Origin: Cytophagales bacterium
GTDB lineage: Bacteria > Bacteroidota > Bacteroidia > Cytophagales > Microscillaceae
Direction: 5' to 3'
NCBI GenBank assembly: GCA_013298075.1
Contig: JAAFJG010000010.1
Location: 1 to 64,000, forward strand
Length of the DNA stretch: 64,000 bases
Below, piece by piece: positions 178-57,141 of this stretch. Both the position numbers and the translations under genes were made by a program. Position 1 is the stretch's first letter. Each line of letters begins with the position of its first letter. Under the pieces are notes generated by a model that ran no database searches, had not been told where the DNA came from, and saw only the letters and a list, made by a program, of their open reading frames with translations.

Positions 178-185
178 TATATTTG
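178..185 (+). promoter_or_regulatory. Promoter -7 box of the helical-repeat gene
   Basis: TATATTTG matches the Bacteroidota -7 consensus TAnnTTTG. It places the transcription start near 192, about 17 nt before the ATG at 209. No clear -33 TTG is seen in the A-rich stretch upstream. Confidence 0.6.
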
Positions 186-208: not shown

Positions 209-3073
209 ATGCAATTCACAAATATTACTACACAATTTCCTCCTAAAAATGATAAGGATATGTTTGAAATGGTACAATTTGTCAAACAAAAACCTTTTGC
301 TAAAGATTATTGGAATATTCTAAAAATGATATATAAAAAATCAGAAGAATATTTATTGAGTACTCAAATTAATGTAGCAACAAAAGAAGAAAGAATTAGT
401 GTGGCTAATTTGATGGGTAATTTTTTAGTTAGATTAGATATATTAAATCATACCAATGATGTAAAAAGTGAATTTCCAACGGCTCTTACCGTTGATTATA
501 TGAAAAGACGTGCCAGACGTTTTATGAAAGAGTTGGGAAAAGTCGATAAAGAATCATATATGAAGATTGCTAAACAAATTATTCTTAATGCCAACACTCC
601 TTCCAATAGAATCGAGACTCAATCTCAATTAGTAATTTCAGATATTTTATTTGGAAACTCTCATAGGTTAAAATATGTAGATTCAAGAACAGGATATAAA
701 TGGAAAAATAATTTTCATTTACATCAAGAAGAAGAAAGATTTCCTGAATATTGGAACGAATCTCCCGAATTTATACAATCTCTTTTCCAAAAAGATAACT
801 TATCCGATGAAGTGTATGAATTTGCTGTGAAATTATCAAATCGAAATGATTGGGGAATTCCAATGATAAATGAAAAAATATTATTGCGTTTTTTTAATTC
901 ATCTTCTGTTTGGCTACGAAAATTAGCAGTGCAAAAATCTTATGCTGATTTTTCTTATCAAGTTATTTCTCCTCAATTATATGCAGGACTTTGGTTGTTT
1001 GCAGATAAATCAACACAAAAAAGAATCTATGAAATTAACCAAAAAAGAGTAAATAATTCTCCTGATTGGTATAAAAAATTAGCAACATCTTTGTCATTAT
1101 TTACTTTTGAAATGCTCAAAAATGGGAATGCCAATAAGCGTGTAATGCGTAGTGTTGATTATTTACAACAAATTTTTCCTGATATTTTAAATAAAAATGA
1201 TTGGAAACCGATGGCAAAAGCCCTTTTAACCTCTCCTTTTGAGGTTTTGAGAAATATAGGTTTTAATGCAATGAAAAATGCTAATTTTAATGAAGCATTT
1301 TATTGGTTAGATGCGTGGCTGGGAAAAGAAAGAGATGTTATCAAAGATAATAAAGAATACGAAAGATTTGTAGATGTTTTTTATTCAAAATGTCCCAAAA
1401 ATGTATCTGCTCAAGATTTAAAACATTTTCTTTTCGCTGAAAATTCACATTATTTTTTAGTTGAATTTGCTTGGAATATGAGTTTAAAAAATAATAATCA
1501 ACGGAATTATTACCAACTTTGGAATAAAATAACGGCTTACACAAATCCTAAACTCGACCAGATTTTTATTTATTCTTGCCAAACTCCATCAGGAAGACTT
1601 GCTTTTGATAGATATTATCAACAATATGGATATAATATTTCCTATTTTTCAGGTAAAACATTAGAAATTTTATTTCAATATGGTACTGAAAAAATGCAAA
1701 GCATATTTATTCATAAATTTATTCAAGATTTTGTAGGTAATTTAGGTTATTATTTAACACAATTATCAAATTTTCCTGAGTTTATTCGCACCATATTATT
1801 GCCAAAAATCTGGATTGAATTTTCGAAAAGTAATAACCAAAGAGATTTTTTTTCTTACGATTGGTATGCTCAACAAGCGATGCAAGTAGCAGAAAATAAT
1901 GAATTTGCGTTAAATTTTTTGATTGAAATATTTGAAAAAATTAAACTGACAAATGATTCTTGGAAATCAATCGTTAATTATATGTACAATTATCCTAATT
2001 TTGTAAAAAAATTATTACATTTTCTTGAAAATTTACCTGATAATGATTCACGTATTTTAAAATATATTCAAAATATTTCTTTCTCACAAATTCAAAATAA
2101 TGCTCATATTATTCCTATAAAACACATCGAAATTGTACTCAAAAAAATGACTTGGGAAGAAATATTGATGTTGGTTTCGGATACAAAAGATGAAATTTTT
2201 ACTATTTTAGAACCATTTATTTTACCAATTTTAGAAAAAAAACAAACCGAAATAGGTTTTTGGAAATTAATATTAGAAAAAGTAATTCAAGGACAAAACA
2301 GACAATTAGGGCTTAGATTATTAGAAAAACCTGTATTTTTTGAATTATTTTTACAACAAAAAGATTTATCTTTGATTGATATTCAAGAACAAGAATACGA
2401 AGAATTGTTGTTGCAATGGACGAAAAAAAATCCGCAATATTTTGAAATGGAATCACAAGAACTATTCAAATTATGTATGCACAAAATTCCATCAGTAAGA
2501 GAATTTGCGTTGGCTCACGCCGAAAAATTAGGAATGACTTTGGTTTTTGCCTTGCGTTTTTTTGAAAGTAATACACCTGATATGGTTAATTTTGCTAAAA
2601 AATATTTTAATCAAATCGCCATAAAAACAATGGAGGAAACCGAAGCAATTTTAGCAATGTGTGATAGCCCAAATAAAAACGTGCGACAATTTGGTTTAGA
2701 ATATGTGAAAAATAGAAAACAACATTTAGCGGAAAAAACTTTGTTGATACTCGAATGTTTGACTGAAAATTCGGATACAATTATTCAAACTTTTGTATCA
2801 GAAGAAATAAATCAATTATCGAATGAAAATTTATCAAAATCTACTAAAAAATTTATTGCAAAATTTGATGATGAAACTTTGAAACTGAAAAATAAAGGTA
2901 GAAAAGCAAAAGAATTTATTAAAAATAGAGTGCAAAATACACTCGAAATCGATACAAAAACTTTGATAAATTTAGTAAGAGTAGGCACAAACGCAGACAA
3001 AGAATGGGCAATAGAACAAATGACCAAAAAAGTATTGGCAGGGGAAGAGATTGAAGGTTTTGTACTTATGTAA
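209..3073 (+). CDS. Large helical-repeat protein of unknown function (954 aa)
   Basis: I do not recognise this protein. It has no signal peptide and no convincing membrane segment, so it should be cytoplasmic. It is almost wholly alpha-helical. The C-terminal third contains degenerate HEAT/armadillo-like units, for example around residues 765-860 where VREFALAHAEKLGM, NFAKKYFNQIA and VRQFGLEYVKNRK recur with similar spacing. Such solenoids usually act as protein or nucleic-acid scaffolds; that is inference only. It stands alone: the rRNA terminator lies upstream with its own -7 box, and a separate gene follows after about 100 bp. No catalytic motif was found. The start is fixed by the promoter 17 nt before the ATG. 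Confidence 0.85.
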   Translation: MQFTNITTQFPPKNDKDMFEMVQFVKQKPFAKDYWNILKMIYKKSEEYLLSTQINVATKEERISVANLMGNFLVRLDILNHTNDVKSEFPTALTVDYMKRRARRFMKELGKVDKESYMKIAKQIILNANTPSNRIETQSQLVISDILFGNSHRLKYVDSRTGYKWKNNFHLHQEEERFPEYWNESPEFIQSLFQKDNLSDEVYEFAVKLSNRNDWGIPMINEKILLRFFNSSSVWLRKLAVQKSYADFSYQVISPQLYAGLWLFADKSTQKRIYEINQKRVNNSPDWYKKLATSLSLFTFEMLKNGNANKRVMRSVDYLQQIFPDILNKNDWKPMAKALLTSPFEVLRNIGFNAMKNANFNEAFYWLDAWLGKERDVIKDNKEYERFVDVFYSKCPKNVSAQDLKHFLFAENSHYFLVEFAWNMSLKNNNQRNYYQLWNKITAYTNPKLDQIFIYSCQTPSGRLAFDRYYQQYGYNISYFSGKTLEILFQYGTEKMQSIFIHKFIQDFVGNLGYYLTQLSNFPEFIRTILLPKIWIEFSKSNNQRDFFSYDWYAQQAMQVAENNEFALNFLIEIFEKIKLTNDSWKSIVNYMYNYPNFVKKLLHFLENLPDNDSRILKYIQNISFSQIQNNAHIIPIKHIEIVLKKMTWEEILMLVSDTKDEIFTILEPFILPILEKKQTEIGFWKLILEKVIQGQNRQLGLRLLEKPVFFELFLQQKDLSLIDIQEQEYEELLLQWTKKNPQYFEMESQELFKLCMHKIPSVREFALAHAEKLGMTLVFALRFFESNTPDMVNFAKKYFNQIAIKTMEETEAILAMCDSPNKNVRQFGLEYVKNRKQHLAEKTLLILECLTENSDTIIQTFVSEEINQLSNENLSKSTKKFIAKFDDETLKLKNKGRKAKEFIKNRVQNTLEIDTKTLINLVRVGTNADKEWAIEQMTKKVLAGEEIEGFVLM

Positions 3074-54671: not shown

Positions 54672-54680
54672 AAAAACCAA

Positions 54681-54720
54681 AAATAAGTCATCAATTTTTT
54701 AGATTGATGACTTATTTTTT
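54681..54720 (+). terminator. Terminator of rplS
   Basis: A perfect 15-bp stem AAATAAGTCATCAAT / ATTGATGACTTATTT with a 7-nt loop and T run, 10 bp after the stop codon. Confidence 0.9.
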
Positions 54721-54899
54721 TGAAATGTATTTTTTGAATTGCCTATAGATTTATCTGGAGGTTAATATAAAACATAATTCTTGGCTTTAGCCGAAATTTT
54801 TATGTTTCTCAAATGGATATTTTTCTATATTTTAAAAATAAAAAAATATTCATATATATAGACCAAAATTAGCTCACCAATAATTTCATAAGAACCAAA
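54721..54899 (+). repeat. Family A element, copy 10, between rplS and the reverse transcriptase
   Basis: GAATTGCCTATAGATTTATC-TGGAGG, TTGGCTTTAGCCGAAA and the right terminal repeat CACCAATAATTTCATAAGAA are present. The left terminal repeat is replaced by the rplS terminator. It fills most of the 310-bp gap before the reverse transcriptase gene. Confidence 0.82.
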
Positions 54900-54940
54900 A
54901 AATTAGCATCAAAAAATTTGTAATCATAATAAATAATCAT

Positions 54941-54948
54941 TATCTTTG
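54941..54948 (+). promoter_or_regulatory. Promoter -7 box of the reverse transcriptase
   Basis: TATCTTTG ends 33 bp before the ATG at 54982, putting transcription at about 54955. The mRNA leader would be under 30 nt, leaving no room for a retron RNA on the same transcript upstream of the coding region. Confidence 0.65.
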
Positions 54949-54981
54949 CAGAATACTTCAACTTTTTATTATTTTGATTTT

Positions 54982-56364
54982 ATGACAAACTACGACAAAA
55001 TGCAAGAAATTCGCCAAGAAGTTGCTACGCTTGGGAAAGAATATTACATTATGCGAGAAATGTTGCGCACAGGTTTTCTGAAAATGTCAGAAGCAGACTT
55101 AGCAACTATCAAAGCAAACTTAGGTGAATTGACAAAAATAAATCAAGAATTGAATGAATTGAGCAAAGAACTCAAAGATATTCCTGATATTACGCCAATT
55201 ATTGCCGAAATTCGTAAAAATCGTATCGAAAAAGTAAGAACACAAAGACTTATTAAAAGAGTCGAAAAAGAAAAATTACTCACCCAAAGAAAAGAAAGAT
55301 TAGCAGAAAAGAAAAAAAATACGCCACAATATTTGGGCGATATTGCCAAAGGATTAAAATTTCAAGCAGAAAATGAACAAAAATTAAAAGATAAAAATTT
55401 ACCAAATCTCCCTGATTTACAAACATTATCTCACCTTTGTACGCTCACACGCGAGCAGTTACAATGGCTTTCTTATCATCGAAAAACAGCCAAAATAGAC
55501 CATTATACACGATTTAAAATTCCAAAACGTTCAGGCGGTTTGAGAACGATTGCTTCGCCAAAATCAAAATTAAGAGTGGTGCAAAAATGGATTTTAGAAA
55601 ATATTTTAGAAAAATTATCTATTCACGAGGCGGCAATGGCTTTTAATGCAGGTGCGTCTGTGGTCAAAAATGCCACGCCACATCTAAACGCTGAGGTGGT
55701 GATTAAAGTTGATGTCAAAGATTTTTTTCCATCTATTAAATTTAATCGAGTGACAGGTTTTTTCAAAAGTTTAGGATATAGTCAAGGAATGTCGTCTGTG
55801 TTGGGTTTGCTTTGTACTGATGCGATGCGTTTGAATGCAGAATTTGAAGGTGAAAAGTTTTTTGTAGCGATAGGAGAAAGATATTTGCCACAAGGTGCTT
55901 GCACTTCTCCGATTTTAACGAATTTAATTTGCAAAAAATTAGATGCAAGATTGAGTAAATTAGCCGAAAAATATGGTTTTGCTTACACACGTTACGCCGA
56001 TGATATGACTTTTTCGCACAAAGAAAAAGAGGCAAATATAAAAGCCATTTTAGGTTGGACTAAAAAAATATTAGCCGAAGAAAGTTTTGAACTCAAAAAA
56101 GAAAAAACTTCTGTGATGAAAAAATACCAAAGACAAACCGTTACAGGCGTATTAGTCAATCACGAAGAAACAAAAATTTCTCGAAAAGATATTAAAAAAT
56201 TTAGAGCATTTTTACATCAATATACGTTAATCGGGGCTGAAAAAATGTCTGAAAAATTAGGAAAAGATGCCACTGCTTACGGAAAAGGCTATTTTTCTTA
56301 TTTGAAAATGGTGAATATTACACAAGCCCAAAAATTTAAAGAAAGTTATAATTGGTTGGGGTAA
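54982..56364 (+). CDS. Retron-type reverse transcriptase with N-terminal coiled coil (460 aa)
   Basis: Residues 1-125 are a charged coiled coil and linker, and about 135-450 are the RT domain. RT motifs in order: FKIPKRSGGLRTIASPKSKL, AAMAFNAGASVVKNATPHL, VIKVDVKDFFPSI, LPQGACTSPILTNLICKKL, YADD at 338-341 (catalytic Asp pair), and VTGVLVN. The retron hallmarks NAxxH (N230-A-T-P-H234) and VTG (387-389) are both present. The long N-terminal extension and overall sequence pattern recall the myxobacterial Mx162/Sa163 type. I start at the ATG after the promoter; the TTG at 54946 lies in the -7 box. No msr-msd is apparent upstream or downstream, and no classical retron effector gene follows except a toxin-antitoxin pair. 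Confidence 0.9.
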   Translation: MTNYDKMQEIRQEVATLGKEYYIMREMLRTGFLKMSEADLATIKANLGELTKINQELNELSKELKDIPDITPIIAEIRKNRIEKVRTQRLIKRVEKEKLLTQRKERLAEKKKNTPQYLGDIAKGLKFQAENEQKLKDKNLPNLPDLQTLSHLCTLTREQLQWLSYHRKTAKIDHYTRFKIPKRSGGLRTIASPKSKLRVVQKWILENILEKLSIHEAAMAFNAGASVVKNATPHLNAEVVIKVDVKDFFPSIKFNRVTGFFKSLGYSQGMSSVLGLLCTDAMRLNAEFEGEKFFVAIGERYLPQGACTSPILTNLICKKLDARLSKLAEKYGFAYTRYADDMTFSHKEKEANIKAILGWTKKILAEESFELKKEKTSVMKKYQRQTVTGVLVNHEETKISRKDIKKFRAFLHQYTLIGAEKMSEKLGKDATAYGKGYFSYLKMVNITQAQKFKESYNWLG

Positions 56365-56502
56365 GAAAATATAAAAAAATACTTATTTTTATTGCGAATA
56401 GTAATATAGAAATTAGTTTAGCAATAATATATGTAATATCTAAACCATTTGAATATTTGTCAATTTATTTCTAAATTCCTAAAAAAAGTATATTTTATTA
56501 TT

Positions 56503-56510
56503 TATTTTTG
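56503..56510 (+). promoter_or_regulatory. Promoter -7 box of the PIN toxin-antitoxin pair
   Basis: TATTTTTG, 37 bp before the antitoxin ATG at 56547. The pair therefore has its own promoter and need not depend on reverse transcriptase transcription. Confidence 0.5.
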
Positions 56511-56546
56511 CGTTATAGAAAAGTAGTATTTTTAAAAAATAAGATT

Positions 56547-56744
56547 ATGGAAAGCATCATATTAAAACCTAAAACGAAAAAAAAAGAAAAAGAGGTTTTG
56601 ACAAAAATAAAAGAAATAGGTGGCGTTGATATTGAAAAAATTAGCAATGTCGAAAAGCCTGCCAAAAATACTAAAAATCTCAATATAAGAGATTTAAAAG
56701 GTATGTGGAAAGACTATGATTATGACATAAATATCAGAAAATAA
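56547..56744 (+). CDS. Small antitoxin-like protein upstream of a PIN toxin
   Basis: A 65-aa lysine-rich protein (MESIILKPKTKKKEKEVLTK...) whose C-terminal part LKGMWKDYDYDINIRK resembles the toxin-binding tail of VapB-type antitoxins in which a short aromatic/acidic helix inserts into the PIN groove. No ribbon-helix-helix or AbrB domain is certain. It ends 10 bp before the PIN gene. The ATG at 56547 follows the promoter; an earlier frame start at 56508 overlaps the -7 box. Confidence 0.75.
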   Translation: MESIILKPKTKKKEKEVLTKIKEIGGVDIEKISNVEKPAKNTKNLNIRDLKGMWKDYDYDINIRK

Positions 56745-56754
56745 ATCAAAAGTA

Positions 56755-57141
56755 ATGAACAAAAAAATAGTTTTGTGTGATACAAATATTTTTGTTAAAA
56801 TTTTTCGTGGTGATGAGATTGTACTCGAACAACTTGAAAATATAGGCGTTGATTATGTAGCAATAAGTCCAATTATAAAATGCGAATTGTATAATGGATC
56901 CAGAAATAAACAAGATTTAAAAAAAGTAAAAACATATTTATCTGCCTATACAAATTATCATATAAGTACAGAAATATCTAAAAAATTTCAAGAACTCATC
57001 ACTACTTATGGATATTCTAAAAATTTAAAAGTACCTGATGCACTTATAGCTGCCACTTCTATTGTTGAAGGTCTATATTTATGGACTTTTAATATCTCTG
57101 ATTTTGATTTTATCGAAGAAATTAGGTTTTATAAACCTTAG
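56755..57141 (+). CDS. PIN-domain ribonuclease toxin (VapC type)
   Basis: A 128-aa PIN domain. The acidic catalytic residues are Asp9 (LCDTNIFVK), Glu44 (KCELYNGS), Asp95 (VPDALIAATSI) and Asp116/Asp118 in the last motif (TFNISDFDFI). VapC toxins cut tRNA or rRNA and are neutralised by the antitoxin encoded just upstream. Length is normal. It completes a type II toxin-antitoxin operon beside the reverse transcriptase. Confidence 0.92.
   Translation: MNKKIVLCDTNIFVKIFRGDEIVLEQLENIGVDYVAISPIIKCELYNGSRNKQDLKKVKTYLSAYTNYHISTEISKKFQELITTYGYSKNLKVPDALIAATSIVEGLYLWTFNISDFDFIEEIRFYKP

Follow-up and report, generated by a model that had tools for sequence, protein, structure and literature searches.

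Known retrons are usually arranged as a single msr-msd-RT transcript (PMC8867640); the reverse transcriptase (RT) recognises the msr, starts synthesis from a 2'-OH and uses the msd as template (PMC8867640, PMC6868368). Engineered systems show that this can also work in trans, the RT having been expressed in trans to the RNA (PMC6868368). Retron-Sda1 and Retron-Bth1 resemble the case described here in being unusual retrons, with unusual composition or interrupted genes; however, their components lie in one locus, without any described split between ncRNA and RT (PMC12548924). We found that the RT of this report belongs with the type XIII retron (PADLOC models RT_XIII, SWIM_XIII, WGR_XIII and HEAT-ARM_XIII), with which its genome shares an RT, a SWIM protein, a HEAT-ARM protein and an msr-msd RNA. 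A second point of comparison is Ec86 (Eco1), a compact operon with a different effector. On comparative sequence evidence, the RT very probably serves as the enzyme of a type XIII retron that has split into its four parts, with the RT working in trans.

The RT gene lies at 54982..56364 on the + strand of the window, the whole 64,000-nucleotide stretch that was analysed, and is a real 460-aa ORF with NATPH (NAxxH), YADD, QGACTSP and VTG. Its assignment as a type XIII retron RT draws on the PADLOC match, where RT_XIII was the best model (E 3e-147; runner-up 8e-85), on these motifs and on dN/dS. All four motifs are kept in 13 of 13 aligned RT sequences, bearing out the retron signatures, NAxxH and VTG plus YADD, of the original prediction. 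Among retron RTs of solved structure, that of Ec86 was the top match (phmmer, E 3e-43). The two systems share NAxxH, YADD, VTG and an msr-msd with a1/a2; unlike Ec86, the window RT carries an N-terminal extension of ~130 aa and has its RNA encoded elsewhere. The -7 box TATCTTTG was found where it had been predicted, 33 bp before the ATG (54941-54948, + strand), and the box and its surrounding bases are seen again before the RT of the sister species G001. The putative leader between box and ATG is too short for an msr-msd. From translations read by eye, we take the neighbours of the RT to be rplS on one side and a vapC-like gene on the other. Between the RT and a TonB receptor gene, positions 56547-57141 hold a small ORF and this PIN-domain vapC-like gene (Pfam PIN, 1e-10). 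The pair was considered as a retron effector and rejected, since G001 does not have it between its RT and TonB receptor genes.

The absence of a visible retron RNA beside the RT, the central claim of the original prediction, was upheld: full-model covariance scans of 54672-56760 with two RNA models, filters off, gave at most 6.3 bits, against 221 bits for a complete RNA copy elsewhere in the same genome. Rfam returned nothing credible in the window, RT flanks included, and no diverged retron RNA was found in the window itself with the R2 model described below. The ncRNA and the RT do not share one operon or transcript, the RNA being on other contigs. Because the single transcript is the usual arrangement of a retron and not its mechanism, filing this system as a retron rests on homology and covariation. 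A family A repeat does precede the RT (54715-54900) as had been proposed, but its other sites in the window number 6 (8 alignments) instead of the ten first claimed; copies also occur on other contigs. We rejected this repeat as a disguised msr-msd because it is a genome-wide repeat with no match to the RNA models.

Clear homologues of the RT were observed in 40 of 390 genomes of the order, forming an RT-A lineage (50-91% identical; 13 genomes including the window genome, G000) and an RT-B lineage (about 35-44% identical; 27 genomes). RT-B genes are mostly grouped with WGR-ARM and SWIM proteins, which is the type XIII set. RT-A genes mostly stand alone among unrelated neighbours, with the exceptions of G003, G014, G018 and G105, in which the SWIM gene lies just upstream of the RT across gaps of 45 to about 240 bp. 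A conserved intergenic element upstream of the RT had been suggested as something to look for in relatives, and in classical type XIII relatives an obvious ncRNA does precede it, no more than about 0.8 kb upstream. Beside RT-B its layout is ACCTTGC, a small hairpin, CACTA..ATCTTTACTG, a long hairpin and GAGTTGA..TAGTCC..AGAATNTACGAAGG. We collected 28 copies of this classical RNA and aligned 17, which gave a consensus of a1/a2, the msr hairpin, a junction helix and the foot of the msd hairpin, with 17 of 26 pairs changed on both sides. A covariance model of the classical RNA (R1) detected it in all 17 RT-B genomes searched (E 1e-31 or better). In one RT-B genome, G191, the SWIM gene of the classical type XIII retron is interrupted by in-frame stops and the RT is apparently split; this retron is probably decaying.

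R1 gave only faint matches in RT-A genomes (best E 8e-4), and by eye those in G018, G014, G005, G009 and G130 proved to be complete diverged retron RNAs, occurring in runs of three in G005, G009 and G014. Unlike that of the classical type XIII retron, the RNA of the RT-A lineage is so diverged that the classical model barely detects it. A second model (R2), built from ten diverged copies, detected the RNA in every one of the 13 RT-A genomes, and of the 377 remaining genomes of the order G010 alone gave a hit; eight of the RT-A genomes (G000, G001, G002, G003, G004, G006, G013 and G105) were found without having contributed to it. Across 19 aligned diverged copies there are 51 pairs in five helices, 43 of which change on both sides, with 89.6% of cells paired (63% in shuffles) and 280 double-changed cells (95 in shuffles). 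This pairing signal collapses when structure partners are slid by one base. The diverged RNA has a1/a2, an msr stem-loop, a junction helix and an msd hairpin, and Rfam holds no curated family for it, returning only sub-threshold miRNA matches to the hairpins. TAnnTTTG stands at fixed spacing just before a1 in six copies, and a terminator-like hairpin and T run follow a2 in G000 and G001. The RNA genes are predicted transcription units of their own.

Two copies of this RNA were found in the window genome, on two other contigs. The main ncRNA (C62:33591-33830), a complete msr-msd with a1/a2, a long msd hairpin, promoter and terminator, was detected by the R2 and R3 covariance models, scoring 123 bits (E 5e-24) with R2, whose alignment does not include it, and the 221 bits given above with R3, whose alignment does. 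The second copy (C150:6133-6285; R2 model) retains msr and a1/a2 and has lost its entire msd hairpin, leaving the C62 copy as the sole RNA in G000 with its msd. This dedicated, covarying RNA strongly supports one of the alternatives first proposed, that the retron RNA is elsewhere. It had also been considered that relatives might show a conserved ncRNA that was lost here. The classical relatives do have it by the RT, but in this genome it is separated and not lost.

Where a genome carries several copies, the msr and the msd tip (CTGA..GC) are common to all, and the msd stems differ while remaining almost perfectly self-complementary. There are four different stems in G013, four in G006 and three in G009, and such multiple copies in some RT-A relatives differ from the described type XIII retron. 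In G006, G013, G009 and G005, RNA genes stand in runs of three or four that agree in msr and msd tip but have unrelated msd stems. Because several stem-differing copies occur in one genome, one RT probably makes several different msDNAs in multi-copy species such as G013, G006 and G009. A phage origin of the stem was unsupported: the 20-base pattern of the G000/G001 msd stem had no match in viral contigs.

The dispersed RNAs could instead be relics of a dead retron, with RT and SWIM kept for another function. The msd-less C150 copy, which has TTTA in its -7 box where other copies have TTTG and so looks consistent with a decaying copy, and the degenerate RNA copies in G005 and G014 point in this direction. 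However, the C62 copy retains a near-perfect msd stem, a1/a2, promoter and terminator, the msd stems of the lineage have kept their self-complementarity even where the sequence has been wholly replaced, and the RT has an intact active site and a dN/dS of 0.08 between G000 and G001. We regard the relic explanation as very unlikely.

Some defence-associated RTs synthesise DNA with no retron RNA involved, and the window RT might likewise have no dedicated RNA and copy a cellular or phage RNA. The lack of an msr-msd beside the RT would fit this, as would the short gaps between RT-A genes and their neighbours in relatives (45 bp in G003). Against it stand the retention of NAxxH and VTG and, above all, a covarying retron RNA in 13 of 13 genomes with RT-A and almost nowhere else. 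With this dedicated RNA at hand, the alternatives in the original prediction that the lineage uses no dedicated RNA or copies another one are not needed, and we rate them highly improbable.

A type XIII retron with separated parts should also have its protein partners, and both were found in the window genome. The SWIM protein is encoded on another contig (C57:32950-34584; PADLOC SWIM_XIII, E 1e-171). Its type, SWIM-A, was found in G010 and in all RT-A genomes but one (12 of 13; the one without it is 79% complete), whereas 14 control genomes lacking both RTs had none. The HEAT-ARM partner, of 954 aa, is encoded in the window at 209..3073 on the + strand and is preceded by a -7 box, TATATTTG, at 178..185 (+ strand). 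We take the gene to lie directly behind the 3' end of a 5S rRNA gene, identified by eye. It was found by homology to a protein of ~930-940 aa that adjoins RNA copies in G005, G006, G014 and G018, lies about 4 kb off in G013, and matches PADLOC WGR_XIII and HEAT-ARM_XIII. The window protein matches the same two models (7e-23 and 7e-11) through its repeat region, the WGR domain itself being missing, in which it differs from the described type XIII protein. PADLOC puts all three proteins in type XIII; for HEAT-ARM we hold this assignment with moderate confidence, given a best E of 7e-23 and no recognisable WGR domain. HEAT-ARM-A was detected in 12 of 13 RT-A genomes and in G010, and 18 other genomes yielded one weak cross-match; none was found in G130, which is 81% complete. 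No classical WGR-ARM protein was above threshold in the RT-A genomes. G010 has a full classical type XIII retron together with SWIM-A, HEAT-ARM-A and the A-type RNA (C15, C19, C32, C49), and RT-A was not found in this 90% complete genome. RT-B may serve both systems there, or RT-A may be missing from the assembly.

Trees of RT, SWIM and HEAT-ARM agree on the genus groups. The similarity matrices of the three proteins correlate at 0.89-0.95, a result that a common species history by itself could produce. In the comparison of G000 with G001, dN/dS is 0.05 for SWIM and 0.23 for HEAT-ARM; all three proteins are under purifying selection, HEAT-ARM changing fastest. The parts in G000 lie among what we take, from translations read by eye, to be ordinary chromosomal genes (rplS, the rrn operon, purD-like and lipB-like). 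They lie outside any defence island, which agrees with vertical inheritance.

In the one-contig genome of G018, the ncRNA, HEAT-ARM, SWIM and RT genes stand in this order on one strand within 6.7 kb. These four parts form one block as in the described type XIII retron, which most RT-B relatives keep in its classical form. HEAT-ARM, SWIM and RT are still together in G105, and G014 has RNA with HEAT-ARM and SWIM with RT. RT, SWIM and RNA are on different contigs in G000, G001, G004, G006, G009, G013 and G130, mostly well inside them. The parts in G000 are at four or more separate loci, in contrast to described type XIII retrons, and every part except HEAT-ARM is deep within a contig, SWIM inside one of 79 kb and the RNA inside one of 78 kb. 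G000 is a 153-contig draft, from which the separation between contigs is read; that of HEAT-ARM and RT is read from one contig. It is scarcely credible that the operon is intact in the organism and scattered only by assembly or binning. In favour of such an artefact, all RT-A genomes but one are drafts, and the G005 RT and SWIM genes, both at contig ends, are probably adjacent. Against it, RT, SWIM and RNA in G000 are each flanked on both sides by other genes, 52 kb of a single contig separates HEAT-ARM from RT, and the parts are likewise separated in the six other genomes just named.

Since G018 keeps all four parts as one block, they were evidently once together and the scattering is derived. 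Among RT-B genomes, G037 (C2) and G052 (C23) have RNA, SWIM and ARM together with the RT about 64 kb away, and no RNA was found beside that distant RT; RT, SWIM and RNA are on three contigs in G090. Scattering in RT-A together with these RT-B cases indicates that separation of retron parts has recurred. Extra lone ncRNA copies were also observed on other contigs of G037 and G052. In G000, the RT, the SWIM gene and the main ncRNA each have a family A copy within 300 bp, against a background of ~9% of positions. This repeat was nevertheless probably not the vehicle of dispersal, since the G001 loci that were examined, at which separation has already taken place, yielded no copy. No report of an unlinked retron RNA was found in the literature searched; the type-defining paper (Mestre et al. 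2020) lies outside it, and priority is not proven.

For a scattered type XIII retron, the HEAT-ARM, RT, SWIM and ncRNA genes of G000 would be separate transcription units among unrelated genes. Since RNA and RT are separate, msDNA synthesis would have to occur in trans: the RT presumably associates with the ncRNA, is primed from its msr and reverse-transcribes the msd hairpin to give msDNA. SWIM and HEAT-ARM would form the effector side, and by analogy the RT-msDNA complex presumably keeps them inactive until phage disturbs it, giving the scattered retron a putative role in anti-phage defence. More tentatively, the retron could be domesticated and passed on vertically, a single RT acting in trans on several separate RNAs with unrelated msd stems and a fixed msr and msd tip to yield a set of msDNAs, perhaps as a sensor panel or for housekeeping and not as a single mobile defence module.

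Searches detect and classify retrons by gene neighbourhood; an unlinked retron escapes them and would be recorded as a lone RT. The present case suggests that other "orphan" retron RTs may be served by RNAs located elsewhere in the genome. In relatives, the repeated RNA copies with exchanged stems offer a way to ask what the msd stem is for, and scattered retrons are natural test cases for trans reverse transcription and RT-RNA specificity. Together, these observations indicate that the pairing of RT and RNA can persist in nature without linkage.
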